In this document: positions 6,137-36,052 of the stretch, piece by piece
Numbering within the stretch: the stretch's first letter is position 1
Layout of the letters: every line of letters starts with the position of its first letter
Assembly: GCA_002803225.1 (NCBI GenBank)
Contig: NXFV01001463.1
Location: forward strand, 1 to 50,035
Direction: 5' to 3'
Source: Gamarada debralockiae
Taxonomy: Eukaryota > Ascomycota > Leotiomycetes > Helotiales > Hyphodiscaceae
Length of the DNA: 50,035 nt
Translations under genes and position numbers: made by a program
Notes under the pieces: generated by a model
The model's input: only the letters and a program-made list of their open reading frames with translations
Told to the model about the DNA's origin: nothing
The model's database searches: none

Positions 6137-6157
6137 AACTGCGGTCAGTTCTACTCG

Positions 6158-12160: not shown

Positions 12161-12827
12161 TCAATCACCAATCATAACCTCCAATCTCCTTACCCTTGTC
12201 CCAAGCGCAGCTCTATGTCCCAGATTTCTCGCATTTGCTTGAGCGTCGCCAAGAAGGACACTCCGAGCACGAAAGTCAGGAATCTCGTCAAGTAACCGAT
12301 TCATGGCGTATGTCTGCGGGGCTCCAATGCTGTTGGGAGGTGGGCTGTATGGTTGCTTTGTACTAGTGCGCTGTTGTTGGACGTGATGTTGAAAGGATGG
12401 TTGAATAATATATGTGGACCGTGAGAGATTGGCGAGTTGTTGACGAGCGTGGTAGTTGATGCTGGCTTGCGAGTGCAGCTCAAGAGGGTTTGGAGAGATT
12501 GGCTGTGCCTGGCTGTTCCCAATAGTTTGTACCGGCGTTGGCCTTTGTGTACTGGTCAATTCAAATCAGTCCTTGCAAGAATGGATGGAAAGAATCCATT
12601 TGAGTTCGAGCAACATACTAATAATTCACTGTTCCGTGGCTACTTTCTTGCTTGAAATCTTGTAGTGGTCTCGGGCCAAGTTTATCTTCGTTCGGGAAGC
12701 AGAGCAGACAATTACTAGTATCTCGTCAACCTTGCGTCCATTAAAACAATTTTAAGCATGGCGATGTCACTTGCAATTGCCTTAGTCCATGATAGCAAGA
12801 AGTAGACTCAAGATTTCTTGTCGCCAT
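12161..12827 (-). pseudogene. Small-protein family, copy 1 (cassette A); frame apparently broken
   Basis: Exon 1 (12827-12775, 53 bases) encodes a start like MATRNLESTSCYHGL. A GC-AG intron (12774-12715, GCAAGT donor) leads in phase 2 to an NCLLC segment. This matches copy 2, whose first exon is also 53 bases and also ends in phase 2 before NCLQC. The frame then hits TAG at 12620-12618. The conserved C-terminal part (12559-12161) resumes in another frame and ends RAALGTRVRRLEVMIGD. I found no canonical intron in the right phase to join them, so either the gene is broken or an unusual splice is used. The family has no domain I recognise. The C-H-C-C pattern at the N terminus could bind zinc (inference). 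Confidence 0.6.
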
Positions 12828-12965
12828 ACTTTCCAACTGAAGTGATTGGAGGGACGGGTAAAGTGTTCAAGGGTTTCGATTGAAGTAAGTGGAAAGACTA
12901 GACGGATTTTGAAATTGGGAACGAAGACAAGACCGCGTATTTAAATCCTGTATTTCAAAATATGC

Positions 12966-13099
12966 GGCATGCGATCACGGCAGCGGCTCCGCTCAGAACG
13001 CTCGCGATCGGGCACTCAAAGCTCGACGGCGAGGGACCAGTGTATCACGTGATGGTTCGGGACGCGATCTCTGCGATCGTTGCGAGTAAGCGCGATAGC
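12966..13099. promoter_or_regulatory. GCGAT/TGCGA-rich region upstream of small-protein copy 1
   Basis: About 140 bases upstream of the ATG at 12827, a CpG-rich patch repeats TGCGAT, CGCGAT and TTGCGAG (13061-13099 is densest) and includes TCACGTGA at about 13045. Similar patches stand before other cassette genes (17176-17231, 29910-29936, 35151-35248). Function as a binding site is inferred only from this recurrence. Confidence 0.4.
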
Positions 13100-13795
13100 T
13101 TATTCAGAGCCACAAAGTTGAACAGCGAATGCTTGAGGATATCATAGAGTGTATGGCAAAGCTATTTCAGGTCCAGCCGGTTGTTGGATGCGGTTTTGCT
13201 GTGAAGTAGGTGTGTCACGTGGCAAATTCTGCTCTCACGAACAAACTTTCCGGCGATTCATTGTGGGTTTCATTGCAGACGCTGAAGAATGAGCAGTTTA
13301 GTACGGGTTACTCTGGGAAGCTCCATCTTCCACAATTCATAACCGGGAAGCTTGCACCGCGCAAGACCACGACATAATAGTTCTGATCTATTCTTTTAGC
13401 TTGAGCTTTGCGCTTTGATGTTCTTCCTCTTCTAGATGGCAAGATGCTGCATAACGTTAGCAAAAGCCGTCAGCATATTGTTAGACATCTGAAATATCGT
13501 TAAGGCATCATAAATTTGCAGAATACGTAGCCCTTTACAACGCCAAATTATCCAAACTTCGAATACACAGGAACAATCGACTGTGTCCAGCAACACGAAT
13601 AGAGAACGCATCGTTCGAAATGTTACAAGTTCTCATGACCTTCAACATCCCCATCCTATGAGTTTCTCACAATGAAGGCAAATGCCGTCCGTTTGCACAA
13701 TCGGCCACACTTCCAACTGCCCAGATGCTCATTTTTGACGTGGGCTCGATCAAAACATGATCCGCCTCAAATCCTCAGCAAACTGACTTGAGCTG
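13100..13795. other. Intergenic, 3' side of NACHT-ankyrin gene A
   Basis: No recognisable gene. The sequence separates the end of the NACHT-ankyrin gene from the upstream region of the small-protein gene on the same strand. Confidence 0.4.
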
Positions 13796-16700
13796 CTACT
13801 GGGATATACTTTCCATCCTCTCCTTTGACGGGATTTCTGCTCCTAGCATCGCGGTGCCGGAATTTGTGGTAAAAGCTTCATCTCGCGATCCAGTTGGGGC
13901 AGTCTTGGGACGGTGCGGCAAGCTTCCAACAGTAGCTGGCATGAGTGTTGACGCATTGGGCCATGGGTCGTTGCCAACCGCCACCAGCAGTTGCTTGACA
14001 GTTTCTATGCCGAGCTTGGCTGCCATTTCAAGGGCTTTGTGCATGTTGGCTCCTGGGAACCACTTGAGGCTACGTCGGGCATTCCTAACCATCGATGCGC
14101 TTATAGCGCTTCTATTGACGGGGGAGGATTCGCATGTTACCAGTTCCATTTCGACTCGGGGGAGCGTTTGACCTTTTACAATGATGGGTTGAAGGTGCAG
14201 CTGTCCTTGGTTGGTGTGAATGGATGATGGACTTGAGGATAACTTCTCAGCTCGTCAGTTTGATTTCCCCTCATAGCATTCAATGTATTGTCTCATTTCT
14301 TTTAAACCTGCTGATTGAAACTTACCTCATATAGTGTTTCAAGTGCTCCACAGTTGTCACAGGCAGATGTGAATGAAACATTCAAAAAAAAGTCTTCTGT
14401 GGCGGCCGATATTCCTTGGTACCCAACCAAGTCCGTTCTCTGCGCTCCATGATGTAGGAGAAGCTTGACTATCTCCGCGTGGCCATTGGCTATGGCATAT
14501 ACCAGAGCGTTGTTGCCAGAGCGAGTTCTAAATTCCACATTAGTATCATACCGGAGCAATAGCTCCACGACTCCAATGTGGCCGTTCATTACTGCCCAGA
14601 TCAATGGAGTAAGCTCCTCCGATCCGCAAATGAGGTCGACATTAGCTCCCATCTCAAGTTCCAGCTTGACCAGCTTTGCCAGTCCAAACCGAGCCCCAAC
14701 TAGAAGTCCTGCTCTCAATGGGTCTACGACATATTGCACTGAGTGGAGAGATCCTTCTCCGAGAATGTTTTGAGCTGTTCGTTCAGGTCCGTCATTCAGC
14801 AGAGATCGAACCTTCCTAAGACTGATTTCCAACGAGTTGTGGAGAAGTCCAGCAAGAAAATTGCTTGAAGCTTCTGCCAGGCGGTAATGAAATATCCATT
14901 GGCTCTGCGCGTAGTCTTGGAAAGAACGAGGCTGTCTTTCTGTTTCCTCCGAATCTGAACTTTCCTTGTAGCTTCTTGGTGATAAATCTAAGCTCTCCAA
15001 CAATTCCACTGGACTCAGTGCCTTCAGGCAAGCGTGTGCAAGGATTTCGTTCGCCTCGTTGGATACGTCTTTCCAGTTTTGCTTCATTCGAGTCTGGAGG
15101 TATTCTCTCACACTAGAGTGCACAAGCCGAACGTGTCCGTGTTCATCGATTGAAAGTAAGCCCCCACAAATTTGCACGATATTGGCATCCTCAACCTCGA
15201 TACCACTTTCTGCATAGAGAGCGCCAACAAGTTCCTGGGTGTGAAGTGGCTCAGCAGCGTATGTGACCCATCTAAGCATTGAAAGTGCAGCATTCTGATA
15301 ACAGTCCTTAATTCGCCCGAGCATTTCGCCATACAATATGGAGAGGTCTGTGTTGTCAAGAGTTGAGTTAATTTGATCAAGTTTGGGGTTCTCCAAATTC
15401 CAATCGATTGAACGTCGAAGTTCTTGCATTACCAGACGAGCCCATAGAAATACGCCAGTAGCTTTCCTGGCAAGTTCTTCGGTCAGCCTTTTTGCAGCGT
15501 GGAATTCCCCAGCGAATTTCCAATCTTGCATGTTTTCGCGAACATATTGCTCTAGATCCTCTCTATGTGCCGGATGAGAATTTAGATCAATTCTAGAACC
15601 GCCTATAAAATCTCTCTTCTGGAGCAACTTCGACCGGCTCGAAACAAGACACCTTATGGGGTGATCTGGGTCATGGCGACTAAGTCGCTGGACGAGTTCG
15701 TGCAGAACATCTCGTTCCTCGCTATCCTCACCATACACATCCAAACCATCAATGAAGACGCACACCTTATCCTGTGCTCTTAAAGTATGTCTGATTTTCG
15801 ACTCCAACCTGATCATTCTCCAGGCGGAAAGGTTATCTCCAGCCGCAATGAGCTCCTTCAATTGGGCTTGAAGAATATTGTGTGAGTAATCTGCCGACTG
15901 TCGAAGGAGTAATTCGATAATTATCTTCCCCAGAACGGCAATTGATGGATTCACTCCTTTTACATCGGAATCCAAAAAACAAGATACGATGACTTCGCCA
16001 GGGTTCCTGTGGGCTCTAAGCTGGCGGTTGATTGTAGCCATTGCAGTTGTTTTCCCAGCCCCCGGGCTTCCAGTAACCCACAAACAGCCACTTCGTTGAT
16101 CACGCCAGGCTTTATACTCTTCGCAGTCCAATATCCAGCGGGAGTTCGCCTCGGTCTTGGTATCGACCTTTGAAGACACTGCTCCATATTTGGGCGACTC
16201 GGAACCGATATAGACAAAGCCGTGTTGTGCTGGACGAGTTCGATGGAGGGCACCTTGCCCTGGATGAGTCAAGATGGGCCTGTGCATTCGGAGTTAGAGG
16301 ATCAAAATTAGGAAGAGAGAAACTTACAAGCACACGGAACTCCCTATCCTTGAGTCCACGATAACATAACTGCTCATCTGCTTCTCATGTTCGCTCGATC
16401 GAGTAACAACAGGATAGTTTCTGCATGATATGCCCAGTGTACTGGAACTGCCTCTCGGTTCTGACCATAAAACCTGGAAGACTTTGGGGGCTTTGCTCCA
16501 AACGAAACCACTGCTGCGAGCCTTATAGCTTGGGTCAAAAACCGCCTCCCCCGTCGTTTTGGTATCTATCCTTTGAATATTTCGCGACAAGGGGTTTTCA
16601 GTCGTTGACGACTGATTTAGGCGCCCATCATGGCTAACAACTTCATATCCCCAGTTCGGTTCGTTGGAGATGGCATCGAGAGAATTGGTACTATCGTCGG

Positions 16701-16933
16701 CGTTGTCGGCATCCAACGGAGATTCATTCCATTCGCATGTCCTTGTACACTCCATTTCTGTTTCGGGAGACTCGTTCTGGCTTGTCCCACTGAATTTTAT
16801 TAGTAACTATTCAGGTTCAAGTATGTGGACTGTCTATGAATTTTAGGTCCGCTAACCATCGTGTCCCAGCCAGTTTGTCTTCCCATGCCAAATCTGCCCA
16901 TTCTGGTGGCTCGATATTTCTGTCCGCGGTCAT
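13796..16933 (-). CDS. DUF6590-NACHT-ankyrin STAND (NLR-like) protein, cassette A
   Basis: Exons 16933-16857, 16789-16328, 16279-14326 and 14242-13796; about 979 residues, all junctions in phase, with a TTACTAAT branch in the first intron. Residues ~110-215 resemble the fungal DUF6590 domain (FQVLWSEP; VCLPILTHPGQG). The NACHT Walker A GSPGAGKTT is near 250 and Walker B VFIDGLD near 355. The NACHT-associated helical part carries the motif RLVHSSVREYL. Two to three ankyrin repeats follow at ~742-805, then a CDNC motif and a conserved tail (KWFPGANMHKALEMAA, GIETVKQLLVAVGND). Such proteins are ligand-triggered NTPase switches, and the N-terminal domain is the probable output module. It is divergent from the Zn2Cys6-ankyrin gene at 17553. 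It is paralogous to the gene at 30177 but with a different N-terminal domain. Confidence 0.85.
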
Positions 16934-17552
16934 TATTTGAAAATAATGATACGATTTACTCTGTCGTATGTATTGATTGCACAGGTTCAACCGTTCAACA
17001 TTTCAAAAAAGACTATGCGCTACCAAACGTATGGATGTTTGGAAGGAAATCCCATGAGAGGTCCTTCTACTAACTGATGGTCTTCCTTCAGCCTTACCAG
17101 AAACACGACACAAGCAGGGTAGCCAACCACAGGCATCGTCAATGGGCGTCTGACTACCCCTGTAAATTACAGCCGTTCGCAAGCCACGCAGCCTCCTGCG
17201 ATAGCGATCGCAACCCGCGATCGCGCGCGATAAGCAAACATGTGACCGCGTAAGTCAGGCCGCGGAGCCTCGTCTACAATGGGACAGGTCGGTGTGGAGG
17301 ACTTGAAGCTATCGTGTGTCAACGTCTTCCTCAGTCCATCCTCAAACTCAAACGCGATTTGAGTAAGCTTTGAAGATCTAAATTTCGGCAACACTGTGAC
17401 CTCAAAACCCTGCACGCAAGTCTTCATTTGTACTATTCATCAGATATCTAAGATAGTAAGACGATAGACAAGGCTGAGGAGCTCTGTTCCTCGACGATGC
17501 ATTAATTCCCCTCTCATTCGGCCATTAGGACACACGCCGAACAGTCATAGTG
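16934..17552. promoter_or_regulatory. Divergent promoter region of cassette A
   Basis: This 619-base gap separates the ATGs of the NACHT-ankyrin (minus) and Zn2Cys6-ankyrin (plus) genes. A CpG-rich cluster at 17176-17231 contains TTCGCAAG, TGCGATAGCGATCGCAA and CGCGATCGCGCGCGAT. The matching gap in cassette B has a similar cluster at 29910-29936. Confidence 0.5.
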
Positions 17553-19170
17553 ATGGCATCACCTCCGAAGAAGGTTGGTATTATGAAATGTGCTGCCTGC
17601 AGACACCACAGGCAAAGGGTATGACCATTTCCTGGCAAATACTGAAGAAGCCGGCGGGTTGACCTCTCTGCAGTGCACTCCCGCCGATCCAGCGATTACT
17701 GAGCGTACGTGGATTGAAGGAGGTCAGCAAGACAAATGCGCGAGATGTGCCAAGCATTGCCAGCCATGTGGCCCACCCGAATATCCCCCACCGACAGAAC
17801 AAGCCGGCTCGCAGTTGTCCACAGCCCTTTCGCGGAAAAGAAGAGTCAGTGAGGTTGCTCAGCACATTGGAGAAGAGCGTGATACGGTTCCAGCACATAA
17901 TGCTTTAGGTGTGGCAGGATCCTCAGGGGTTATGACAGATGATATGGTTGCATTGCAGCGCAGGTCAGAATTCCAATTTCCAAAATTATTTTTGGGAGCG
18001 AGGCTGAAACAATATAGGTTGAGGGAAATAGACTTGAGACTAGAGGCATTGAGCAAGCTAGACGAAGATATCCTTTCCATCGATCTCACGGACGGCGACC
18101 CCGACAACCAAACGCGCTTCAACACTCTCATTGAAGCAAGAAAAGCAACTTTGGACAAAGTGCTGGATATGCTACGCCTGGCTAAGAACTTGGCAATTGG
18201 CGTGGAAGAAGCTGGGAAATCAACTGAGGCCTATAATGCGTACACACGGGTTCTCGAAGGATACCGCACACTAAACATGCCCGCATCCTACGAGATTAGG
18301 AGCATTCTGATCAAGATGGCGAAGCTGCTCTGGGCCATTGGAGACAACTATCGTGCACAGAGTCTTGCATGGCAGGCTTTGGAGTCACGTGACCCTCTGG
18401 ATCGTGCACAACGATCCGACTTGGAGGTTCTGAAAGGTATCGCTAAATCTCTGTTGCAAACATCTCCCGAACTTTCACAGATTATACAGTCTGAGATGCC
18501 TGGCCAACTGACGACTTGCAACTCGCTGTTTGCTCCCTTACATGTCATGATGGAAAGCAACTATGCTTACAGCGTCCCGGGAAACCTGTTCCAGGCTGGT
18601 CTACACCCAGCCATCAACAGTGGGAAAGCACCAGAAAGCCCAATTGTTGGGGGCATCGACGCTGTTGTCGAGCTACTTCGAGAGTTTTCTGACGCGGATT
18701 TGGACTCGAGAGACTCGAACAAACGATCGCCTTTATTCCTGGCCGCTTCGCATGGCAAGGAAGGACTTGGCCATGCGCTAATGATTCGCGCGAAGCATAA
18801 TCCTAGATTACTCAACCGACTCGTCAACGCAAGAGATCAAAATGGGCAAACCATACTTAGTGTAGCCATTCCGAGTGGATGTTCATTGCCTTTCGTCACG
18901 GCTCTCATCGATCACGGAGCAGAGGTTGACCCAGAGACTGTAGAACGAGCAATGACACCACTCCAAGCTGCTTGCTTCGTCGGATCTCTTGAGAACGTCG
19001 ATTTGCTGGTGACAAGAGGTGCCAATATCGATGCTGCATATCCTGGCAGTAGTACGCCTCTTGCCATAGCGGAAGAGCGCGGAGATTTCACCATCATCAG
19101 CCGCTTGAGCTACTCCTCTGCCGGGCCTCTGAGTACTCATAATGCTCAAGGTAGTGATTACGGAGGATGA
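17553..19170 (+). CDS. Zn2Cys6-ankyrin protein, cassette A
   Basis: Exons 17553-17618 and 17674-19170; 520 residues, intron of 55 bases in phase 0. The intron falls just before the third cysteine. After splicing, Cys 13, 16, 23, 44, 47 and 54 form C-x2-C-x6-C-x20-C-x2-C-x6-C, a fungal Zn(II)2Cys6 binuclear cluster with a long loop. Such clusters normally bind CGG-type DNA sites in the nucleus. Residues ~95-250 are helical, with AYTRVLEGYR and KMAKLLWAIGDNYRAQSLAWQAL resembling TPR-like helices. Ankyrin-type repeats fill ~340-510 (TPLQAACFVGSLENVDLLVTRGA). There is no fungal-specific transcription factor domain. A paralogue with the same order and intron position is at 28020-29564. It may be a regulator or partner of the divergent NACHT gene (inference). 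Confidence 0.82.
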
Positions 19171-23796: not shown

Positions 23797-25853
23797 ATGA
23801 TGACCGACGTAAGACATCCCACAGTGCATCAGGAGAAAATGGGGGAGATAGAGGTTGTGCAGGCGGTGCATCAGGACGGCACGGTGGATTATGTGGATAC
23901 GCATGCTGTGGGTGGGGACCTAGCTCAAATGCCGGAGGGGTACTATCGGAGCTTTCAGTTTGTGGGAACCGTGATTGTGAGTTTTGCCTGCCTGTTCAAA
24001 ACGCACGAAAGAAGTTGCTAATGCTGTAAAGGCTGTTTGCTCTGCTAGTATTTGCGCGTACTTGGGATGGGTTCTACCTGCCAACACCCTGTACGTCTAC
24101 CCTTCCCAAAAGCCTGAGGAGAAATGGGAAAGCCGAAAGACTGAGCTAACATGAACACAGTGTTCTCATCAACGCGGACATCGGCCCCTCACCCAACATC
24201 AACTGGGTAGCCACAGTGTGGACACTTGGCACAGCCGTTGGTTTCCTCCTCGTAGGCCGACTCTCCGATATCTTCGGCCGCAAATGGATGGTCTTAGGAA
24301 CCTCCATCTTGGGACTCATCGGCAACATTCTTGGCTGCACAGCTCAATCCGTCAACGCCTTGATTGGCGCTAACGTGTTCAACGGGCTAGCGGCTGCCGG
24401 TCAATTGAGTTTTGGGATTATTTTGGGAGAGTTGGTGCCGAATAGGATGAGAGGCCCGATTGTTACATTGGTGTTTTTGAGCAGTTTGCCTTTTGCTGGT
24501 ATGGTCGTTCCCTCATTTCTTGCATGCGAGTTCGAGATTAAGGCCCTTGATACTGACGCGAGAATAGTATTCGGACCCATCATCGCCCGCTCCTTCATCC
24601 TCCACACATCAGCCGGTTGGCGATGGAGCTATTACCTAGGAATCATCCTCTCTGTGATCGCAATTGTGCTCTACCAATTGATGTATCACCCGCCAACCTA
24701 CACACAACTACATGTCCAAGGGAAGACGAAGCGTCAACAACTGGCGGAACTTGACTACGGCGGTATTTTCCTCTTCACCTCCGGCATGGTGTTGTTTCTC
24801 ATTGGGCTGAGCTGGGGAGGGACCGTGCATCCATGGAAAAGCGCGCAAGTTCTCTGTACCCTGTTGATTGGGATCGCTACTCTTGTCGCTCTTGGGTTCT
24901 ATGGTATGACCGGTCTCCCGTTTCCGATCCTCACAGCCAACCCTGATACTGACTGCCCCGCAGAAGCATATTTCGTCAAACACACAGCTCTAATTCCACC
25001 TCGCCTCTTCCGCAATATTGGTTACGTAGCAATCATCTCCTGCGCAACGGTTGGATCAATGATCTACTACTCGATGACAATCCTCTGGCCCACAATCATC
25101 GGCAGCGTCTACACCACCAATGTTCTTGCAATCGGCTGGCAATCCTCCGTTGTCGGCGGCGGTATCTTACTCGGTCAAACGCTCAGCGGTCTCGCCATCT
25201 CCTTCGTGCCTAAGGTCAAGTACCAAACTATCATCGCGGCTTGCCTGTCCTTCGCGTTTTTCACATCTTTATCTTCAATCTCCCAAGGCGAAGCAGGCCA
25301 TACGGCATTCATCACGCTGGGTGTCCTGGCTTGTGTGTCTATTGGGTTTGTGGAGAACATCACCTTCCCAGGTGTAACGCTCGTCATTGAACCACAAGAC
25401 ATCGGCCTTGCAACGGGAGTGCTAGGCTCTATCCGTGCAGCAGGTGGTTCCATCGCACAAGCTCTCTACGTCTCTGTTCTCGACAACAAACTCACCGCCT
25501 ACCTCCCGGCAAACGTCGCTCCTGCGGCAGTCAAAGCCGGCTTGCCATCCTCCTCACTCCCTGATCTCTTCGCAGGTATCACAGCCGGGAATTTCTCCGC
25601 CGTACCGGGGATTACGCCGAGTATTATTGCTGTTGTGGGAGAACAAGTTACGAGAAGTTATGTTGATAGTTTCAAGGTCGTGTTTTATGTTACTGTACCG
25701 TTTAGTGTCATTTTGATTCTTGCGGCGTGCTTTGTGCCGAATATGGAGAGCTTTTTGGGGAATAACGTTGCGAAACGCTTGCAGGGGATGGGGAAAGAGG
25801 GCGGAAATGGGAAAGTGGAGGTTGTTGAGATGAAAGGCGAGGATAGTGTTTGA
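23797..25853 (+). CDS. TRI12-type MFS transporter (DHA14-like efflux pump)
   Basis: Exons 23797-23976, 24032-24090, 24161-24498, 24568-24903 and 24964-25853; 600 residues with consistent phases. About 14 hydrophobic segments are visible. MFS motif A GRLSDIFGRKW follows TM2. WVATVWTLGTAVGFLLVGRL and GLAAAGQLSFGIILGELVPNRMRG match the fungal trichothecene efflux pump family (TRI12), whose usual length is about 580-600. It exports small molecules by proton antiport at the plasma membrane. No biosynthetic gene cluster is seen around it, so the substrate cannot be named. The upstream ATGATG pair leaves the exact start ambiguous by one codon. Confidence 0.9.
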
Positions 25854-25934: not shown

Positions 25935-26602
25935 TCAATTTAACAACAACTTCGTCACTGCTCCGTGGAACTTGACTGCTCTCATTCCCCTCCCGACCCC
26001 AGCATCACAATTCTTCTTCCAAACCACTAGATTCAGCGCGCTCCAAGAAATGGCGAGAACAACATACGGAATCAGCAGCCACCTCACCGTCTCTCCTTCA
26101 GTACAATACTTCCCAAAGTCCACTCCCTCCGCAAGGCCCTTGACCTGACCCATCCAGCTATCAATCGTAAAATGCCGCTCTGTATACAGCACCATTTAAT
26201 CACTCAGTCTTTCCGGCACAAATACGCTACTGCCATAATACCGCACAAAGGAAAACACAATTGCAGCGATTCCAATGCAGAGGCGAAGCGAGCTGAGGAA
26301 GAAGGCGAAGGGTCCCATTCCGCGACGTACCATTTGAGGCCCAGGAGAGGCCGTGTACTACGATTCCGAAGTCGAAGAACAATGCATTAGCGACGCCTCC
26401 ATAGCCTGCAGCGATCATTATCCAGTAGCTTGAGATATGTTGGAAAGTAGGTGTAGGATTCTGGACCGGTGTTTATGACTAGGGGAGGTGGGGTTTTTGT
26501 GATTGGATTTCCAGTTGAGGCGCCGATTAAGCCCAGAATTGTGGCGGATACGAGGAGGAGAATGAGTGTCAAGGCAAGGCGGGAGATGGTGAGCAACTCC
26601 AT
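25935..26602 (-). pseudogene. Broken gene for a four-helix membrane protein
   Basis: Four hydrophobic segments lie in order on the minus strand but in shifting frames. The first starts at ATG 26602 (MELLTISRLALTLILLL). The second is near 26430-26360 (SYWIMIAAGYGGVANALFF). The third is near 26330-26230 (GPFAFFLSSLRLCIGIAAIVFS). The fourth, after a TAA at about 26195, is near 26080-26020 (WLLIPYVVLAISWSALNLVVW). No canonical introns restore the frame at the first two shifts. The layout resembles fungal MARVEL-like four-helix membrane proteins, but I cannot name the family. Confidence 0.5.
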
Positions 26603-28019
26603 GACCAATAAATACCGTTTAAACCAAATTTGAATCAAGCGTTGTAGAAGCTCCCTGTTGCAGAGATGTAGGACGTCACTTCACAGCTGAAGGTATTTTG
26701 AAGCAGTGAGTGATTTATACTACGAGAAAAGTGAATTCAACAACTCGAATCTCATGGTCTGATGGGCGCATCTTGTACTTTTTAAGTAACATGAGACCCA
26801 TCAATAAAGAACTTAGCCAACGTCACTGACGCCAAAAACCGCAGGCTCAAAAAGTTTGGCCCGCGGCGCAGAACAAGCGAATGCGAAAGTTAAAAGCCTC
26901 CACCCTTAGCACAGAAGACGTCCACATTTACAAAGAAACTGAGGAGAAGAAATGATCGACCATGCCTTTTGCAATTCTAAGAATAGCTTCAAGCCCAACT
27001 TTCGGCTTGCAAATTCAACGTTGGCCGGAGTTGGACGGACGGACGTTTGGACGTCCGTAAGCGACGGAAGTCGCCAACAAGTGGTCACGTGATGCGGATA
27101 GCGACAGGAAAGTTAAAATTGAAGCCTTCTATAAGATAGCAGACGAACAGATGTCGATCTGGAGTGTAGAAGAAGTCTTCTGCGCGCCAAGATACATGTA
27201 CATGTAGAGGGTCTTGATGAGGAGACTGTCGATGTACGCAAACCCCAAGGAGGGTTGACTCTGAATGAACGCCGCTTCTACTCCCGTCCTTTCCTTCCTT
27301 CCTCTGAATGCCGAATGCCCAACTCCTCCCATGCCGTACTCCATTTTCGCATATATGCAAACGTAATCATCGCGGTCGTTATGGTGTATTAGAAAGTTCA
27401 TAATCAAGAGATCTAATGCAGAAGATCGAGAACGAAGTGGCCTTTTTCGAGTGTCTGGAGCGAAGGAAAAGAAGAGCGTACTTTTGAAATTCTTCGTTTT
27501 GGTGTTGGTTTTCGCCGTGGGACTAGGTCTCGTTATCTGGTGTGATAGTGGAAAGGGCATCAGGACGCGAAGTCAAGCCTGGTGCCCCATTGGCCTTCGA
27601 TGGAATGTCAGGTTGAGCATTTATATAATCCCTTGTCGGATCCCATCATCCGCCTTTGTGCATCTTCTAAATTGGGTATCTGGTATACCTGGAAGCTACT
27701 GAGGTCCGACAAAGCCATTCTCTCCTGGCTCGAGGGATCCCTTTCAAACAGAAAGAGTGAGATCCGAGTCGGACATTCGGCTCCGAACTCTTTGCCTCTA
27801 AGGCCTACCGAAGCTAGGACGTGGCTTTTACCGTCAGGATAGAGGGGATGAGGGTGTTCCGGTCGTAACGGGGCAACGTTTTGGTGCTTGGAGGTGAGAC
27901 TGCAGCCAAGTAACGTGCCCGAGAAGCAGATATTGGGCCCCACAAAAAAACTTCTCTCTGTTAAAAACAGCATTGTTTGTGTCGAGAAAGAAGCCTTCCT
28001 GGTGTTCTCATGTGAAACA
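26603..28019. other. Intergenic, no gene supported
   Basis: Several frames of 60-210 residues exist on both strands (for example 27129-27560 minus, 27451-27702 plus). None has a recognisable domain, and the longest minus-strand frame runs under the 3' end of the adjoining Zn2Cys6-ankyrin gene. TCACGTGA occurs at about 27086. Confidence 0.4.
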
Positions 28020-29564
28020 TCAGCCTGCCGCGTAGGATTGCAATTTTTGCACGATGTCCTCATGCCCAGCTTCTTGAGCGAGTGCTTCAGGCGTCTTCCC
28101 TCCGGGGTAAATCCTCCCGGGCTTTGCCCCATGCGTGAGAAGTATATCCACAATCTCTGGGTATCCCAACCAGGATGCAACTTGCAAAGGCGTAAGAATG
28201 AATTCCAGCAATTGCTCAGGATCGACCTCAGCACCGTAGTCAATAAGAGCCTCGATGTATCCCAAAGAACAGCGTCTCATTGTGGCAATTCCCAAGGTGG
28301 TTTGTCCGGATTTATCTCTCGTATTAGTGAATCGTCTTCTTGATATACATGGAAGTTCCGCCGCGTGCAATAATAGAGCAATGCCGAAAGGTTCTTTTTG
28401 GAGATCAGTTGCCATATACAAAGGCGATCGGCCATGTAAATCGGTCGCTTGTAGATCCGTTTCTGGCACCATTCGAAGGAATTCTCGGATAGCCTCAATG
28501 CCACCAATTATTGGGGGCACTAAACCTTCGGAGTCGGTCAAAGAGCAGGTCTGAAAGATATTTCCTGCCACGTCAGAGGCATACTTGCTTTCCATCATTC
28601 TTTGTAAAGGAGGAAGCGACATGGTGAGCTTCGAAGACATGGGGCCGATGATCATATCCTGGATAACTCTGGAAAGTTCCTTGGAAGTCCGGGGGAGAGA
28701 TTTGGCAAGACTTTTCAGTAATCTAAGGTCGCTTTCTTGGGCTTGACGATGGATTCCACCCAACTCCAGGGCCTCCCACAGAAGATTTTCTGTCCTGAGC
28801 GGTTCCCCACTTTTCCAGAAAAGATTCGCCATCTTTAACAGCAAGCTATGCACTTCATGCCAAGCCTTGATATCTATCATGCGGTATACATTCAGGATCC
28901 GGGTGTAGGCGCTTCCAGCAGCCTCAATCTCGTGTGCTGCGTAAACACGATCTGCCCAAGCTTCCGCGGGACCCAGTTTGGACGACAGCACGCGAGTGCT
29001 TGCATTCTTCAACGAAGTTATCTCTCCGTAGAGGGGTTCGAGCTGCCTATCATTCCTCTCCAAGTACTCTATGCCCAGTTGTAGTTGCTTGTGGGCCTCC
29101 ACTTCGACGTCTAAATCTGCCAACCTGCAACCTTATTAGATCGAGGTTGAATATGATTGGGGTGTGAATTGACCAACCTTCGTCTGAGCTCCTGTTTGTC
29201 ATCCCCTATCCCAACATCATCTCCAGCGAAGTCGAGGAGATCTTCCACTGGGGCGTCATTAAGTTCACGTTGCACTGGCCCAGCTATGCTAGGACCGGCT
29301 CGAGGTGGAGGTGGAGCTTGCTGCTGGGAAGGACTTCTTCGGCGGGGCTGTCGACGAGGGAGGCGTTCGTTGGGCCCGCATTCATGATTATATCGCAAGC
29401 ATCTCTCACATTTCTGTTTTTCCCCACCCTCGACCCAGATTCTCTGGCTTGGGGTGCACTACATAGAGTCAGCCATACAGTGCGCAAGATCGGAGGCATC
29501 CCAGTTGCTGCCCCACCTTTTGCTTGCAGCGCCTGCAGTGTGGGCACATTCCAATGCTGACCAT
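28020..29564 (-). CDS. Zn2Cys6-ankyrin protein, cassette B
   Basis: Exons 29564-29517, 29458-29178 and 29124-28020; 477 residues. Intron 1 splits the zinc cluster at the same place as in cassette A, although its donor GTGGGG is weak. Intron 2 has a CTAAT branch. Cys 7, 10, 17, 33, 36 and 43 form C-x2-C-x6-C-x15-C-x2-C-x6-C, a standard Zn(II)2Cys6 cluster. A basic, Pro-rich linker follows (PRRQPRRRSPS), then helices with AYTRILNVYRMID and LLKMANLFWKSGEPLRTENLLWEALEL, then ankyrin repeats at ~300-470 (TPLQVASWLGYPEIVDILLTHGA). It is divergent from the NACHT gene at 30177 and is the mirror partner of the gene at 17553. Probably nuclear (inference). Confidence 0.82.
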
Positions 29565-30176
29565 CTTGTCGATGTAGTCGGATTTGTCTGCTGAGACAGG
29601 GTCTTGGTGGGGTTGTGGGCGCAAGCTTTATAACATTACGAAGGTGTTGGGCAGGCAATGCCCCGCAGCTGGCAGAGGTGAAATTGGTAAATGAAGAGCG
29701 CCCAAGAGGTAACGTACGCCGTTACTCGCCCTGTGTTCTGGTGCTACCGGGATCGCACGACGAGGTCTAAACTGGAGTTCAGAGGTCACTGGATAACGAG
29801 GCGCGAATCAATATCACAAATTGGAGGCCACAAGATGGTCGTGCTGCGGCTCGTGGTGCCTTGAGGCGCGCGCAGGCTTCAACGTTCTGATCCCTGTCAT
29901 CTGCAGATATTCGCAAGCGCTCGCATGCGTTCGCAGCCGCGTCGCTTCCGTACACGCCACCATTTGACATTGCTCATTTGAGCTGGCACCGTAAGGCGTC
30001 CAACTTTCAAGGCAGCCCGCCCGATCTAGGAGTCACGGCGAAAATCCATATTCCGCAAGGCTGAGCTGAATGATTAACTATATATCTTGAGAAATGGTGA
30101 TGAGTTTTTGGTAGTCGTTCGGGAGGCTGCATGCGTTTTAGATACTCAATTTCCAGCCTTGGTTGGCCCATACCCA
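29565..30176. promoter_or_regulatory. Divergent promoter region of cassette B
   Basis: This 612-base gap between divergent ATGs is almost the same length as in cassette A (619). A CpG-rich run at 29910-29936 contains TTCGCAAGCG, TCGCATGCG and TTCGCAG, the same motif class as in the other cassette upstream regions. Confidence 0.5.
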
Positions 30177-33100
30177 ATGATGGTCGGCGAAAGTTTTGCT
30201 GGAAAGCCTAGTGAGCATGAGTCGCATTCAGGGAGCCTCGAGGGCGACTGGATTGACTTGGGCAGGTAAGTATCCCTCGGGGATCGACTCTCACATCCAA
30301 ACCTGGCTAAGAGGTCAAGGGCGATGAACGACTCCGACAACGAACCTCCACGTGACAAAACATTCGATTATTCCAGGAAGGTTTTCCTTCCTGTCGACGT
30401 TGGGGGCTTTCTAAGTCAAGGCAATGAAATAATTACACTCGAGGGCTGGTGGAAGTGTTGTGGAGGTAGCAATTATAGGTGTAATCGGGAGGTCAACAGC
30501 AGTCTTTCCAGCAATTATTGTCCTGGTTGCGGCCATGAAATTTGTGATAGTTGCGGTTCAGTGGGATCCACGTACAACGTAGTGCTGGAGTATGGTGCCG
30601 AACACGACCTGGCTTCCTATTTTCAGGACGGTACCGACAGGACAGGTGAAGACAACATTATTCGATTCTGGCAAGGGCTGTTTGAGATAGCGGATGCTGT
30701 TCTTAGGATAGATGAAATCAGGCCTGGCAAGACGAACAAGATATTTCAAGGGTCAAATCTCCAACAACCCATTTCGCTCAGATCACTAATTAGTCTAGTA
30801 GATGGCACCAAGATGTGAAACCTGCGAACATATTCCTCTCGAAGAGCAACTCAAGCAAAGACGTGCCCGGATGGAGCTTCAAACTTGCTGATCTTGGCTT
30901 AAGCCACTTCCGAAGCTCGTTTTCCGACGAGAAGACTTTGAGTCAAAAAGGGGTTAATGGGAGTAACACTTATGGTATGTTTCAACGATATATAACACAA
31001 CAGCTACTAAATACTGCGCGACCAGGGGCATCTGAGTGCTATACATCAAGTGGAAGTACTGCATCAAGTCGGCAAAAAGCAATGCAGGAACTTGACATCT
31101 GGTCTCTTGGCTGTGTTTTCTCCGAAGCAGCTGCGTGGCTTGAGACAGGCTTTGACAAGTCTTCCAAACCAGATACGCGGAATAAGCATGCTGTAAGGGA
31201 CACCGATTCTTTTCCACGAGACTATAGTCAGCGGGAAAGGAAACGTGCATTCGCAGAGGATACTCCAACTCAGCCACATGAAAGGCGACTCGTACAACGC
31301 TATCGGGCTAACGACAAATTCTTGCGCGGATCAACGGCTCCATCAGTCACGACCGAGTCAAGGTGGGATGTTCTTACGATAGTCTTGGAAGAGATATTGA
31401 TAAAAGCGAATGGCCTCAACAAAGATGGGGTAGACTTATTCTTTTCCACCGAAGATTCTGAGAGCGGACAGGTCACAAGGACTGTTGATCCAGGCTTGCA
31501 CAATGGCGCGAGTTCCATATCGGAACGCCATTGGCTCCAGTCATCACGGACAAATTGTGGAAACAGTTCCTTAGTAGCTTTTCAAAAAAGGCATGCCATC
31601 CTAGATTGGCTATCTCCAGCCAATCTTGCTAGTGACTCTGTGGGCGACAATTTGGTCGGCGGAAGCTGGAGTCAACACATCTCCAGTTTCTTGGGAGAAA
31701 GGAACTCTATCTCAAGCACTCAGGGAACTTGTCAATGGTTTCTTGAAGACGACCAATTCGTTCGCTGGCGGAACTGGTCAGAGGGAGTTCTCTGGCTCAC
31801 TGGATCCCCCGGTCGCGGGAAATCAACTTTGACTTCTATGGTCCTTAAGACAATTGAAAATAATCGGCGAGACGGAGAATACTTCGCGAATTTTAAAAAA
31901 GATCCCTATTTCAGAGGGCTCAGCACGGTATCAGGGATTCTGTGGGAACTCTTAATACAAATGCGTTTGCGCGAACCAGCAGACAAGTCAAAGCTGGACC
32001 TCCACGCGGCTCTTGCAGACTTGGTCCATACCGGAGATCGAATTTCTAGTTCGCGGATGAAGCATATCTTCTCCAAAATTAGACACTGTATGAAGGCCCA
32101 CGAAACTCTCTACTTGTTTGTGGATGGACTGTCTGACTTTGAATGCCAAAATGAGCGGGATTTGCTGTATGAGCTGTTCGACCACGCCAGCCGCTCTGAT
32201 CCTCACCATCGAATAAAGCTCTTTCTCTCAAGTAGCCCAGATTTCTTTGGAACAAGAGATTTCAGGGGTGCATTGCGAGTGGATTTGGACACACATCCCA
32301 AGGCCAAAGAGGATCTGGTTCTATACGTTAAAAGCGCCCTTCAAAGACCAACCTGGGATCAAGACTCTGAGAACTTCTCAAAGAGGCTTCTCAAACAAAC
32401 CGAAAGGCCTTTTCTCCCGGCTGAACTAGTATTGCAATCCTCCGGGCTTACATCTGGAGCTGAAAGCCCTCTAAACCATATTTCCCGCTCTGTGTCAGCA
32501 GACCTCCATACCTTGTACGCGAATCTACTCGGACAGATTGAAAAGTGCAACCGCGAGATTGCTATGTCAACATTAAGTTGGCTCGCATGTGCCGCTCGAC
32601 CACTTCACTCGATGGAAATGATTGGGGCATTAAACATGCAAACAGGCATCGAGCTCGATAGCGCAGATATTGTCCAAATTTGCGGTAGCTTCGTTGTAGT
32701 TGATGAGAACCACATTGTGCGGTTGGTTCATTACTCGGCGCGAGAGTTCCTCCTCGAATCCTCCAAAGATGGCAACGAGAGCGAAATATGCATGGAAGCA
32801 AATGAGATGATTGCAAACACATGTTTGAAAACGTTGTATCCACAGACTCTGCTACGAAGCTTGAGACTGCCGACACAAGAGTCAAGTTGCTTAATGACCG
32901 AACAAGCTCCTCGCTATCGACAGTCTTTTCTCAGTTATGCGTTCAGATATTGGATCTTCCACTACAAGCTCGCGGAGCCTGGCAGCAGCTATATTGCAGG
33001 ACTTCTCCATACATTCTTAGGCAAATGTCTACCTTCTCTGGATCTCGTAAACACGGCATTGTGGGTGGGCGCTCGTTTTGGGTTTCCCAAACTCGTAAGA

Positions 33101-33856
33101 TTGGAGCTCGACATGGGTGCTAATATCAATCTGGCTTCTGGGCCAGAAGAGCTCACTCCACTGATTTGGGCAGCAAAAGCTGGGCACCTAGATATAGTGA
33201 AGTTATTACTTGAGTATGGTGCGGACCCTCAGATACCTTCTGGGAGTGGCGTCACTCCGTTGATGTTCGCTGCTGCAAATGGGCATCTCGAAATTGTAAA
33301 GCTGCTCCTGGGCCATGGCGTCCAGAATCATGTTGCTCATTCTTCTGAGCAAGACTTGTCGTGTACAAGCAGGGCTGCGGAGAGTGCGACCCAAGAACTT
33401 TCCTTGGAGGCAACGTTCTCAGAGCCGTGTACAACTTGCGGTTCAGTAGAAACTGGCTATCGGGTGAGTTAATGGGAAATGATTAAAAAAAGAGAGACAT
33501 GCTAATTCCACGGAAAGTTAAGCATAGTTCATAAAATGGATGATGCTGATGACGCGGAAATGCTTCCTCCCATTACTGTAAAGGGAGAATATATCTCACG
33601 GGCAGAGATGGAACTTTTGAAAATTCACCCATCTCTGCAGAAGACTAGAGCCTTTTCCGCCAACTCCAGAAAAAAGAGCCAGAAACAAAACGTAAAGTGG
33701 TTCCCCGGAGCGAAGATGCATCGGTCATTAGAAATAGCTGCCAGGCGAGGCATAGAGGATCTCAAGAAACTTCTCGTGGCCGTTGGAAATGATATCAATG
33801 ACCTGGACAGTAGTATGTCGGTAAGTAAGCTGCTTGCGAAGATGCGAATCTCGTAA
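30177..33856 (+). CDS. Zn-ribbon / kinase C-lobe / NACHT / ankyrin STAND protein, cassette B
   Basis: Exons 30177-30265, 30320-30751, 30802-30974, 31026-33463 and 33518-33856; 1156 residues, all in phase. A zinc-ribbon-like segment (WWKCCGG ... CPGCGHEICDSC) at ~80-125 is joined directly to the end of a kinase N-lobe (VVLEYGAEHDLASYF). A C-lobe follows with catalytic loop WHQDVKPAN (~175-183), ADLGLS (~203) and DIWSLGCVFSE. The glycine loop and the catalytic Lys region are absent. NACHT Walker A GSPGRGKST lies near 490. Walker B FVDGLSDFE near 595 has Ser where Asp is usual. The arm motif RLVHYSAREFL, ankyrin repeats (~936-996), CTTCG and the conserved tail (KWFPGAKMHRSLEIAA, LLVAVGND) follow. 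It is paralogous to the gene at 13796-16933 with a different N terminus. Either start codon of the ATGATG pair is possible. Confidence 0.8.
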
Positions 33857-33860
33857 GCAT

Positions 33861-33935
33861 TTTGCGAAATGTTGGATCTTGACTGTCAGCAATCTCGTGT
33901 GTATTTGCGAACTGTTGGATCTTGCGGGCAATAAC
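33861..33935. repeat. Short direct repeat just after NACHT gene B
   Basis: TTTGCGAAATGTTGGATCTTG at 33861 recurs as TTTGCGAACTGTTGGATCTTG at 33904, a period of 43 bases. Both carry the TTGCGAA motif seen in cassette promoters. A GTAAGT at 33822 could start another intron through this region, so the extreme C terminus of the NACHT protein is uncertain. Confidence 0.6.
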
Positions 33936-34059
33936 AAACATGTGGTATCGTGTTATAGCAGGCAATGGTATTTTCGGATTGCAAGACTCACCTACAAACA
34001 GTACGGTTTTATGCTTTTTCAGGGCTTTCGGCGTGATCTGTTACCAGCACATCGATAAC

Positions 34060-34409
34060 GAGGAATGAACCTCATCACTATCAAGCAGATTTGAGAAAAC
34101 CACGCCCTTCGGGCATGGCTCAACAGGCGTACTCAGCCTCTGTGAGGGGTTTCACAGTGCAATCACTGGCTCAATGGGGTTCTACAACAGCTCTGGCACC
34201 AACAACAGTACAATTCAATCCAAAGTTATCTTGAGAACACGCCATTGCTAGGCAGGTCTGACCCTCACGAAATTAGGCCCGATCAAGATTAAGTCATAGT
34301 TTGGTGTTATTCTTGTTCAAACCCTCTCTGAGACTGCGTTACAGTAACTAAACCTCTCGTTAGGTTGACCTAAATCAAAGATCTCCCGTGAGACTAGAAA
34401 TACCTGGCG
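34060..34409. other. Intergenic with a possible unidentified coding relic
   Basis: A plus-strand stretch at about 34135-34250 reads as a protein-like fragment (ITGSMGFYNSSGTNNSTIQS) ending at TAG. I do not recognise its family and see no start or splice context. Confidence 0.3.
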
Positions 34410-35014
34410 CACAGCCTTTAAAGCTGCTACGTCGGGAGGAACAGTGATTGAAATGGCGCTTTTTGGATGGCTAGCGGATAGACTTGGCAGAAGGAAGATG
34501 TATGGAATCGAGTGGGCTATTATTTTGCTCTCGACACTAGCACAATCCCTAAGTGCCCCAAGTCCGGCTATCACGATGACCGGCCTGGTAATATTCTGAA
34601 GAGTAGTGATGGATGTTGGAATTGGAGGAGGCTGCCCCTTGTCGGCGGTGATCACATCAGAGTACGCACTTTCTTTGCGTTGCAAAGGGAATACCAAGAC
34701 CCCTCCCCATGATACTACACCACCAAGTCAATATCTATAGACTCGAACAACACTAACTTGTCCCCAGATTCGCTCCAACAAGATGGTGTGGTGCAATGAT
34801 GGCAGCGGTGTTCTCTATGCAAGGCGCTGGCCAATTCTCCGCCGCGCTCGTAGTACTAGTCACCACCGTATTCTTCTCTACTTACAAGGGAAAGTCGCTA
34901 ATGATGAATGATTCCTCGTCGGATCTCACTTGGTCAAGCGCAATGGCAATTCTTCATTGCGTTCCTTTCTGTCGAACGCATAGTATGATTGATACAATGG
35001 TCATTTATGGCTAG
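34410..35014 (+). pseudogene. Phosphate:H+ symporter (PHO84-like MFS) fragment
   Basis: About 34420-34670 encodes MFS helices with GTVIEMALFGWLADRLGRRKMYGIE and GLVIF, interrupted by TGA near 34599 where the family has Trp. After an intron with a CACTAACTT branch (donor about 34662, acceptor CCCCAG near 34767) the frame resumes with RWCGAMMAAVFSMQGAGQFSAALV. It then degenerates and stops at 35014. Both the N-terminal and C-terminal parts are missing. The order of motifs is that of fungal inorganic phosphate transporters of the PHO84 type. It sits between the NACHT gene and the small-protein gene of cassette B and has no counterpart in cassette A. Confidence 0.7.
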
Positions 35015-35150
35015 CTGCAGATCCAAATGACTCGGCGGACGCGATCTTCACCAGACTACCTCTACAAGTGTACAGGGCCAGGGCCGTAGAACTCGCAGTC
35101 CTTCTTCTCCCCGTTTCGAGTTTTCGCTCCAAGCAAGAATCTCGTGATAA

Positions 35151-35248
35151 TTCGCAATTCGCAATTCGCAGTTCGCAATTTCGCAGTGCGCAAAGAACCC
35201 GAACGATCACGTGGACGCGCGCTTTGCGAACCGTCCCGTTCGCGAGCG
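35151..35248. promoter_or_regulatory. TTCGCAA tandem cluster upstream of small-protein copy 2
   Basis: From 35151 the heptamer TTCGCAA or TTCGCAG recurs about five times at 7-9 base spacing. It is followed by TTTGCGAACCG and TTCGCGAGCGC at 35222-35248, and CACGTG lies between them. The ATG of the small-protein gene is at 35441. It is comparable with the patch before copy 1. Confidence 0.5.
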
Positions 35249-35440
35249 CTGTGATCCGACGCGCCGCACAAAAACGAAATGAAGTTCGGGCACTTCAATC
35301 ATGATACGTCGATACGATACGTCTCTTCAATCGACTTTACAATCCAATTATCCTGCAAGCCAACCAAATTTTATCTTAAATCTCAAATCTAATTTTCAAT
35401 CACTTGAAATTCGATTTTCTAATACGATCACTTCAACATC

Positions 35441-36052
35441 ATGGGTCCTCGAAGCAATGAAACTTTGCTTTGTCTTCACGGGCTGATGCCACAGTATGCT
35501 TTTTCTTGTTCCATTGCTTTTGCGGGAAGATAACTAATTGAATACAGCAATTGCCTCCAATGCCACCCTGGTACTCGAGAAAGTGGACACGCCTTTCTCT
35601 CCAATGCAGAGCAACGCACTGGCACCGCTGCTGTTCTTCAAAACAGTGGTCAAGCCGCTGTTGCTACTTTAATCTCACTACCACACATCAGAGACCCAGC
35701 TCCGCCTTCCCAAGGTCAATCAATCGGAGCAATCGCTGCTTCTCGTGGACCATCTACTTCCTCGCCCGAGTCCCGAACAATCAGCAACGTCCCAAACGCA
35801 CAACCTCGCACTCCTCTTCTATCTAGCCCCCCCGAAGGCCGAGCCCAAGGTATCAAAAGACCTTACAATCCGCAGCCAAACAGAATCGGAGCAAAGCAAA
35901 CTTATGCCATGAATCGTTTCCTGGACGAAATCTCCGATTACAACTCCCTCACTTTAGTGCCAGACGAGCAGACGGTTGTAGAGAGAAACAAAAGACATCG
36001 TGCTGCACTACAGACTAGACTGAGGCGATTGGACGTTATGATTGGTGTTTGA
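35441..36052 (+). CDS. Small-protein family, copy 2 (cassette B), intact
   Basis: Exons 35441-35493 and 35548-36052; 185 residues, intron 54 bases with a CTAAT branch, phase 2. I know no family for it. The N terminus has C-x-H-x6-C-x2-C (CLHGL then NCLQC), a possible zinc site. The middle is low-complexity (Ser/Pro/Gln-rich). The C-terminal ~60 residues are the conserved part: IGAKQTYAMNRFLDEISD, then RNKRHRAALQTRLRRLDVMIG. That region is predicted by eye to form a basic amphipathic helix. Copies are at 12161-12827 and 36955-37392. It stands downstream of the NACHT-ankyrin gene, in the same direction, as copy 1 does in cassette A, which suggests a linked function. Confidence 0.7.

Follow-up and report, generated by a model that had tools for sequence, protein, structure and literature searches.

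Fungi carry many NLRs, most of whose partners are unknown; lipase-type executioners are also among the partners in fungal NLR-effector clusters. Such clusters, including nwd2/het-S, PNT1/HELLP and a three-gene cluster of Chaetomium globosum, join an NLR gene to one or two partner genes, and the known partners are pore-forming executioners linked to the NLR via a shared amyloid motif, according to the available parts of PMC12881547 and PMC9815663. In fungal gasdermin and protease-bearing receptor pairs, too, a receptor with repeats sits in a small gene cluster (available part of PMC12881547). Plant sensor/helper NLR genes form head-to-head pairs that diverge from a common intergenic stretch, and head-to-head NLR pairs are rare in Sordariales, accounting for 13 of 225 two-NLR clusters (available part of PMC12258605).

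Here we describe two three-gene blocks in a window of 50,035 nucleotides, the whole stretch of Gamarada debralockiae DNA that was analysed. Each block holds a STAND/NACHT-ankyrin receptor gene (N), a gene for a protein with a cysteine cluster and ankyrin repeats (ZN) and a gene for a small protein (S). The blocks resemble the NLR-effector clusters in setting partner genes beside an NLR gene, and the plant pairs in having a divergent pair around a common intergenic stretch. However, the divergent partner is not an NLR, since ZN1–ZN4 gave no NACHT/NPHP3_N match in Pfam. Unlike the gasdermin pairs, S1, S2, ZN1 and ZN2 matched neither gasdermin nor CHAT nor S8 protease families, and no HeLo, HeLo-like, lipase or similar domain was found by Pfam in the cassette partners. 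Unlike in the amyloid clusters, no motif of the amyloid type common to N and S emerged for cassettes 1–3 in a simple ungapped test of the first 80 N residues against the last 80 S residues (best scores reached by 86, 106 and 202 of 300 shuffles, respectively).

We read the locus, as the best explanation, as a fungal NLR cluster whose genes are inherited together and whose composition is new. We give a probability of about 0.6 to the view that the window blocks are two of three, probably four, copies of an NLR cassette whose products form one non-self-sensing unit, with N as the predicted switch, ZN as the likely ankyrin partner and regulator and S as a likely adaptor or effector. The initial annotation knew of no described system with this composition; the papers listed in literature searches agree on the composition, although fungal NLR clusters of two or three genes are described as a kind (available part of PMC12881547).

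Two diverged blocks of the same three gene families

Spliced gene models placed the same three families in both blocks at the coordinates first proposed, and the lengths of the two divergent ZN-N gaps were also as annotated (Table 1). The small genes were present in both blocks as claimed but proved to be spliced and to start further upstream, at 12827 for S1 and 35441 for S2. In the segment between the blocks, described initially as an NTF2/RRM and MFS segment, the NTF2-domain gene and the MFS gene stand, whereas the RRM match falls just below the cut-off. An MFS-like fragment, also below cut-off, sits between N2 and S2. No RNA families or tRNA genes were found in the window.

Table 1. Positions of cassette features, in window coordinates except where contig C717 is named
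Feature	Position	Strand	Details
S1	12161..12827	-	exons 12827-12775, 12714-12619, 12551-12161; first intron GC-AG; CxHGx5CxxC motif
N1	13796..16933	-	exons 16933-16857, 16789-16328, 16279-14326, 14245-13796; spliced model
Intergenic ZN1/N1	16934..17552		619 bases; TGCGA/TCGCA at 3 sites, including one close pair
ZN1	17553..19170	+	exons 17553-17618, 17674-19170; six-cysteine cluster, TPR-like region, ankyrin repeats; spliced model
ZN2	28020..29564	-	exons 29564-29517, 29458-29178, 29124-28020; six-cysteine cluster, TPR-like region, ankyrin repeats; spliced model
Intergenic ZN2/N2	29565..30176		612 bases; TGCGA/TCGCA at 4 sites, three of them 10 bases apart
N2	30177..33856	+	exons 30177-30265, 30314-30751, 30802-33463, 33518-33856; spliced model
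TGCGA array upstream of S2	35152..35185		sites at 7-8-base spacing
S2	35441..36052	+	exons 35441-35493, 35548-36052; CxHGx5CxxC motif
Broken S-like copy, ~1 kb beyond S2	37047..37325	+	profile match E 9.1e-7; conserved C-terminal block resumes in a different frame, as judged by eye
ZN4	C717 7460-8723	+	splice choices uncertain
N4	C717 about 6671-3273	-	splice choices uncertain
Candidate S4	C717 2664-2013	-	short exon-1 signature

The paralogues are clearly diverged, as the initial annotation had it, with protein identities of 39% for ZN1/ZN2, 38–39% for N1/N2 and 34% for S1/S2. Their DNA has almost nothing in common: a single match of 98 bases at 73% in blastn and, in a separate comparison, three short inverted stretches at 71–73%. 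Because the copies are so strongly diverged in both protein and DNA, we rejected a duplication created by the assembly.

The cassette recurs in the genome

A third cassette was found on contig C522 (L044), with ZN3 on the minus strand and N3 and S3 on the plus strand, and all three reading frames stay open. A fourth locus, on contig C717 (L050), carries a clear ZN-N pair together with a candidate S4. Order and orientation are common to the first three loci, with ZN and N divergent and S following N on the strand of N, and the ZN-N pair is present at the fourth. Thus the proposal that the three genes are kept together gained a third locus, and a fourth if S4 is accepted. Between copies, protein identity is 24–39% for ZN, 29–38% for N1–N3 and 18–35% for S; because the order recurs although less than two fifths of the protein sequence is shared, the three genes likely form one self-defence or self-recognition unit.

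Whole-genome searches covered 54.3 Mb, and only the best candidates were scored, so that the counts are lower bounds. Among the best candidates, matches to the N2 tail lay at four places, each of them in a cassette. Among the best candidates, the S2 search gave five matches at E ≤ 10, namely S1, S2 (two exons), S3 and one on contig C85 (E 1.6) that looks like noise. The ZN1 search gave at least 68 matches with the best 83 of 313 candidates scored; among these, matches extending beyond the ankyrin part occurred only in the window and on C522, and the others began at query position 331 or later. One of the latter, on C717 (query 367–487), was identified as ZN4 on reading its locus. Among the best candidates, intact ZN and S genes turned up only in cassettes, and within this genome the scored candidates did not include the scattered, unlinked homologues that the initial annotation had set against its own reading. 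A caspase-domain gene beside cassette 1 was discarded as a fourth member: its family is large and dispersed, and none of the 91 matches listed for it lies on C522 or C717. A PDB sequence search with its ORF gave no match.

Segmental duplication did happen, because DNA that flanks the window locus is still present beside the C522 copy, at 71–77% identity by piece. This finding would suit an explanation in which the three genes are unrelated chance neighbours that were copied together as passengers without any joint function. We regard that explanation as very doubtful. The MFS copy beside ZN3, with 72.5–76.9% DNA identity over aligned pieces to the MFS gene beside ZN2, has gained stops, yet ZN3, N3 and S3 have remained open. 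Likewise, the fetched flanks on C717 have nothing in common with the window by blastn, yet C717 has kept both the S signature and the pair of ZN and N. Protein identities of only 18–39% imply long retention, and the confinement of intact ZN and S to cassettes among the best candidates also speaks against passengers. The cassette genes of C522 and the window have no blastn match to each other and are 43–45% identical in codon alignments; set against the MFS flank, this suggests fast change of the cassette genes, although the figure of ~73% for MFS comes from local pieces and that for the cassette genes from whole alignments, so that the measures are unlike.

The small protein

S1 and S2 have no known domain in Pfam, and the S3 and S4 ORFs gave no Pfam match above cut-off. 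The structure model for S had a mean pLDDT of 52, with nothing interpretable beyond a C-terminal helix. S is putatively a small adaptor or effector, as first proposed. The S exon-1 signature occurred only at S1, S2 and S4 in 189,806 bases, in each case with a 53-base exon 1.

We also considered a functional unit consisting of a two-gene ZN-N receptor pair, with S an independent neighbour. S4 was detected by its signature and not by the S profile, which did not list it up to E 20 among 2,986 ORFs (a result that we counted against the one-unit reading), and an MFS-like fragment is tolerated between N2 and S2. Nevertheless, this alternative is unlikely, since S1–S3 were found among the best candidates only beside N, apart from the broken copy beyond S2, and the exon-1 signature lies at the expected place on C717.

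Receptors with unlike N-termini

The proposal of a STAND/NLR switch was supported by Pfam, since each of N1–N4 scored above the cut-off for NPHP3_N. Ankyrin families were also above cut-off in N1–N4, and Walker A and Walker B strings were read by eye in each. The receptor N-terminal domains, unnamed in the initial annotation, differ. N1 reads DUF6590, NACHT (NPHP3_N, 79.3 bits), winged helix, ankyrin and tail, with DUF6590 reaching 44.4 bits in the spliced model, where the cut-off is 27. N2 has a cysteine-rich start and a partial protein kinase, followed by NACHT (NPHP3_N, 89.2 bits), winged helix, ankyrin and tail; its Pkinase match, at 30.2 bits, falls just short of the 31.7 cut-off and spans profile positions 120–204 of 263, that is, the C-lobe only without the N-lobe. 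The starts of N3 and N4 have no Pfam match, that of N4 being zinc-finger-like by eye only, and a relative has a HET start.

N belongs with the fungal NACHT-ankyrin NLRs, which have diverse N-termini; PKinase is in the domain list of PMC4986451 (available part), and DUF6590 is absent from the main text of PMC9815663 in its available part. In contrast to these NLRs, the receptors here occupy equivalent cassettes and show at least two recognised, unlike starts (N1 and N2) in addition to N3 and N4 without a Pfam match. Unlike N-termini on related NACHT-ankyrin bodies across equivalent cassettes are a new observation. If related receptors keep the same neighbours under different N-terminal domains, the core that senses would be separable from the part that gives the output.

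ZN and the sequence between the genes

The six cysteines of ZN, arranged as CxxCx6C twice, are invariant in the alignment of all four proteins, and one intron position, directly 5' of the third cysteine codon, is common to the four gene models. Pfam gave ankyrin matches and weak TPR_12 matches. For exon 3 of ZN2 the predicted structure had a mean pLDDT of 79.6, and its structural matches were mostly DARPin (ankyrin). The cluster resembles that of Zn2Cys6 binuclear-cluster regulators in its two CxxCx6C halves and in the basic residues of the first, and zinc and DNA binding are putative. It differs from them in its long linker, in a sub-threshold Pfam score and in the TPR-like and ankyrin repeats that follow. 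Against Zn_clus (PF00172), ZN2 scored 10.5 bits, ZN3 11.8 and ZN4 16.4, all under the gathering cut-off of 21, and ZN1 had no match. Thus the resemblance behind the label "Zn2Cys6" stands by the cysteine pattern but has no Pfam match above cut-off, and a regulatory role of the zinc cluster is tentative.

TGCGA/TCGCA occurred 36 times in 6,326 intergenic cassette bases, compared with 25 times in 15,192 bases outside ORFs at 35 other loci (approximately threefold), and close pairs numbered 14 against a shuffle mean of 0.4 and maximum of 4. The S3 stretch has no close pair. The element was found by looking and was not preset; ranked from the four stretches of the window alone, it came 11th, and none of the top five 5-mers from these stretches carried over to those of the other cassettes. 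Close pairs were equally many for CGCGC in the first set and for CCCCC, TCGAA and CGATC in the second, and triple TGCGA clusters were hardly commoner genome-wide than a reversed-pattern control (30 versus 23). Between the intergenic stretches blastn found only matches of 11–16 bases. We treat the enrichment as a lead, which one hold-out test did not support.

ZN could instead be a protein-binding co-receptor or guarded target, its cysteine cluster being structural and binding no DNA. The 15–20-residue linker between the half-clusters, the low Zn_clus scores, the failed hold-out test and the predominance of repeats, which make up most of the protein by Pfam and predicted structure, are consistent with such a role. 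However, CxxCRx5C followed by CxxCx6C is kept in all four copies and the clustered element is common to the intergenic stretches, and we hold the co-receptor or target role as a tentative possibility. An improbable elaboration of the one-unit reading is a cassette with its own regulator, in which ZN would bind the TGCGA clusters and couple expression of the three genes, the ankyrins would sense or guard, and the output domain would be swapped freely (DUF6590, kinase, zinc-finger type, and HET in a relative). If true, no earlier NLR module would have combined a transcription regulator of its own with a small adaptor of the zinc-knuckle type.

For the preferred reading of one sensing unit, we infer the roles of ZN and S as follows. 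N would stay inactive until its ankyrin repeats meet a ligand or an altered partner, the trigger being perhaps a fusing foreign strain or perhaps a parasite. N would then assemble via its NACHT domain, and the signal would pass through its exchangeable N-terminal domain, through S, or through both. Less firmly, the zinc-cluster-like N-terminus of ZN might help set expression of all three genes via the TGCGA clusters in the ZN-N and S promoters. The trio names two candidate partner families of fungal NLRs at once.

Relatives in other genomes

The ZN alignment was run against viral_contigs and genome_contigs, where no hit was confirmed. Named Helotiales have N-type receptors with the tail (P0099 and P0105), and the matches listed include no ZN or S relatives from named genomes, so that N may act by itself in those fungi. 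The cassette receptors do not form one clade in the N tree, which has long branches, a result counted against the one-unit reading; N3 lies beside the P0097–P0106 group (89/91), N2 groups with P0091–P0094, and N1 stands apart. The trio has been kept through deep divergence in one genome, and there is a hint of the same ZN-N pair in a second, from equal contig sizes rather than from DNA seen: a ZN relative (P0008, 58%) and an N relative (P0094, 59%) are both listed with a contig of 273,037 bases from the same source.

Two diverged copies of a three-gene cassette in the window

The window contig (C695) belongs to a fungal genome of 54.3 Mb in 1,112 contigs, and both blocks were modelled as spliced genes. 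As listed in the table, each block contains a STAND/NACHT-ankyrin receptor (N), a protein with a six-cysteine cluster, a TPR-like part and ankyrin repeats (ZN), and a small protein (S), with divergent ZN-N gaps of 619 bases in block 1 and 612 bases in block 2. The proteins of the two blocks align along their length with identities of 39% (ZN), 38-39% (N) and 34% (S), and there is almost no match between the blocks at the DNA level. The spliced models and these alignments bear out the initial annotation, which had described a three-gene cassette present twice in mirror orientation, and the 34-39% protein identity with nearly absent DNA match rules out an assembly duplicate as the source of the two blocks.

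Cassette gene models and other features of the window
Feature	Position	Strand	Remarks
LTR-type retroelement	1-6422		252-base repeats at 1-252 and 6171-6422, 99.6% identical
RNase H and integrase zinc domains	4058-4861		within the retroelement
Caspase-domain ORF	9210-10706	-	adjoins cassette 1; Peptidase_C14, 22.3 bits (cut-off 21.4)
Anthrone-oxygenase-like ORF	11096-11911	+	adjoins S1; 45.3 bits
S1	12827-12161	-	block 1, spliced model
N1	16933-13796	-	block 1, spliced model
ZN1	17553-19170	+	block 1, spliced model
MFS gene	24150-25853		past ZN2; TRI12-type by Pfam
Stretch matching the C522 cassette locus	26909-27209		71% DNA identity to L044:1094-1396 over 316 columns; lies between an MFS and a ZN gene in either locus; window sequence matches no Rfam family
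ZN2	29564-28020	-	block 2, spliced model
N2	30177-33856	+	block 2, spliced model
MFS-like fragment	34369-34596	+	between N2 and S2; 19 bits, under cut-off; probably a decayed insert
S2	35441-36052	+	block 2, spliced model
Small tandem array	36287-36398		16-base unit
S-like broken copy	37047-37325	+	about 1 kb past S2; profile E 9.1e-7

A third and a probable fourth cassette on two other contigs

Searches of the same genome scored the best candidates only, so that all counts are lower bounds. With an E threshold of 0.001, ZN1 gave at least 68 matches (best 83 of 313 candidates scored); the best outside the window lay on contigs C522 (9e-20, query 194-477) and C717 (3e-14, query 367-487), and the remaining listed matches begin at query position 331 or beyond, in the ankyrin part. 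The N2 tail was found in at least four places, namely both window genes, C522 and C717, and the same four ranked first among at least 56 matches to the N2 body. With S2, at least five matches at E up to 10 comprised S1, S2 (two exons), C522 and one noise-like match. On C522, ZN is divergent from N, and S lies downstream of N on its strand; on C717, ZN is again divergent from N, with a candidate S at the equivalent place. Identities are 24-39% for ZN and 18-35% for S over four copies and 29-38% for N over three, and all four ZN gene models have an intron directly ahead of the third cysteine codon.

When 2,986 ORFs were searched with a profile built from S1-S3 and four database relatives, the C717 candidate, S4, was not among the matches listed at E values of 20 or less. 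S1 and S2 both open with a 53-base exon, and the motif CxHGx5CxxC spans the splice. An independent signature, which combines an ATG and a phase-2 first exon (41-76 bases) with CxHGx4-6CxxC spanning the intron, was searched for in 189,806 bases, with 12 loci overlapping the cassettes omitted, and occurred only in S1, S2 and S4, with an exon of 53 bases each time. S3 carries the variant motif C-x2-H-C and a first exon that is likely 56 bases long. The C717 candidate S4 is regarded as a probable S gene.

Receptors differ at their start

Splicing revealed start regions missing from the initial annotation: DUF6590 in N1 (44.4 bits; cut-off 27), and in N2 a cysteine-rich stretch and then half of a protein kinase, its C-lobe (30.2 bits, just under the cut-off of 31.7; profile positions 120-204 of 263). 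Because no kinase N-lobe was seen in N2, this part may be an inactive kinase. PKinase is among the N-terminal domains listed in PMC4986451. Downstream, N1 and N2 share NPHP3_N/NACHT, a winged helix and ankyrin repeats, followed by a CxxC, an intron at an equal position and a tail with the motif KWFxGAxM, which by eye reads like a last ankyrin repeat. NPHP3_N scored 92.8 bits in N3 (C522) and 103.2 bits in N4 (C717), both with ankyrin families above cut-off; neither start had a Pfam match, and that of N4 looks zinc-finger-like by eye.

For ZN, the cysteine cluster reached at best 16.4 bits against Zn_clus, under the cut-off of 21. The predicted structure of exon 3 (mean pLDDT 79.6) has long helices at residues 2-142 and then ankyrin repeats, and of the 50 PDB matches listed for it, most are DARPins by title. 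For S, the prediction from six sequences (mean pLDDT 52) shows disorder and a helix at the C-terminus.

Relatives in other genomes

Outside this genome, ZN matched 85 proteins, nine of which (P0001-P0009) cover 71-77% of ZN2 with 47-80% identity; the remaining 76, all ankyrin proteins, cover at most 35%. S matched four proteins. With an E limit of 1e-20, N matched 27 proteins, 16 of them (P0091-P0106) at 37-74%, including proteins of the Helotiales species Stipitochalara longipes and Hyaloscypha hepaticicola. By eye, the tail is present in P0095, P0099, P0101 and P0105, and a scan of the first ten of the 16 found a HET fragment at the start of P0098 (21.9 bits, under the cut-off of 22.5). The ZN relative P0008 and the N relative P0094 have the same source and both give 273,037 bases as the longest contig. 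ZN and N are likely to be linked in a second genome too, because the two records are taken, from this shared figure rather than from sight of the DNA itself, as one contig.

Two results count against exclusiveness of the trio. Among the matches listed, none to ZN or S came from the named species that have N relatives, and the cassette receptors do not form a single clade in the N tree, whose branches are long: N3 lies beside the P0097-P0106 group (89/91), N2 with P0091-P0094 (100/100), and N1 apart. Thus, either the relatives lost or hide their ZN and S partners, or the receptor family is wider and the trio makes up one subset of it.

A candidate intergenic element and a proposed mechanism

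The ZN-N and N-S stretches of the four cassettes were analyzed as eight stretches of 6,326 bases (before S2, only the last 640 of 1,584). TCGCA/TGCGA was the top over-represented 5-mer: it occurs 36 times, where shuffles gave 17.5, and its z of 4.56 lies above 3.86, the 95th percentile for the best z in shuffles. Its density of 5.69 per kb compares with 1.0-1.95 per kb (9-39 sites, varying with the ORF mask) in non-ORF DNA elsewhere in these loci and 1.65-1.74 per kb in 35 other loci of the genome, almost all of them with NLR or ankyrin genes. Close pairs (at most 12 bases apart) numbered 14 in 7,270 cassette-stretch bases, in seven of eight stretches, versus two in 120,545 control bases and four in the remaining 46,252 window bases. 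Counting against the element, the 5-mer comes 11th when the four window stretches are taken by themselves, and the five best 5-mers of that set failed to carry over to the remaining four stretches. Within those it comes fourth and has six close pairs versus a shuffle mean of 0.14, but CCCCC, TCGAA and CGATC form as many or more. Triples gave 30 matches genome-wide (26 places after merging) versus 23 for the reversed-pattern control, three places being in cassette stretches (ZN2-N2, before S2 and before S4). We regard this sequence pattern as a lead to a cassette element.

N is predicted to act as a nucleotide switch whose N-terminal output would be exchangeable. ZN, head to head with N at all four loci, would be its best candidate partner, and the cysteine cluster and shared intergenic element suggest that it may have a role in expression of the cassette. 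S would likely serve as an adaptor or effector. Among top-ranked titles and abstract beginnings of mainly freely accessible literature, no paper was found on an NLR partnered by a zinc-cluster/ankyrin protein and a small protein. In Sordariales, NLR genes seldom form head-to-head pairs, which make up 13 of 225 two-NLR clusters (PMC12258605).

Divergence of cassettes and flanks

The MFS gene past ZN2 has a copy past ZN3 on C522, at about 17460-18775 (L045/L044), which is decayed by stops and frame shifts, yet retains 72.5-76.9% DNA identity in aligned pieces. The cassette genes of C522 gave no blastn match to the window, and their codon-alignment identity is 43% (ZN2/ZN3) and 45% (N2/N3); the measures are not alike, the MFS values being from local pieces and the cassette values from whole alignments. 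The cassette genes may be changing faster than the decayed DNA next to them; alternatively, the flanks may have been exchanged at a later time. No match to the window was seen in the C717 flanks examined. The caspase-domain ORF beside cassette 1 belongs to a large, dispersed family with at least 91 matches in its own genome.
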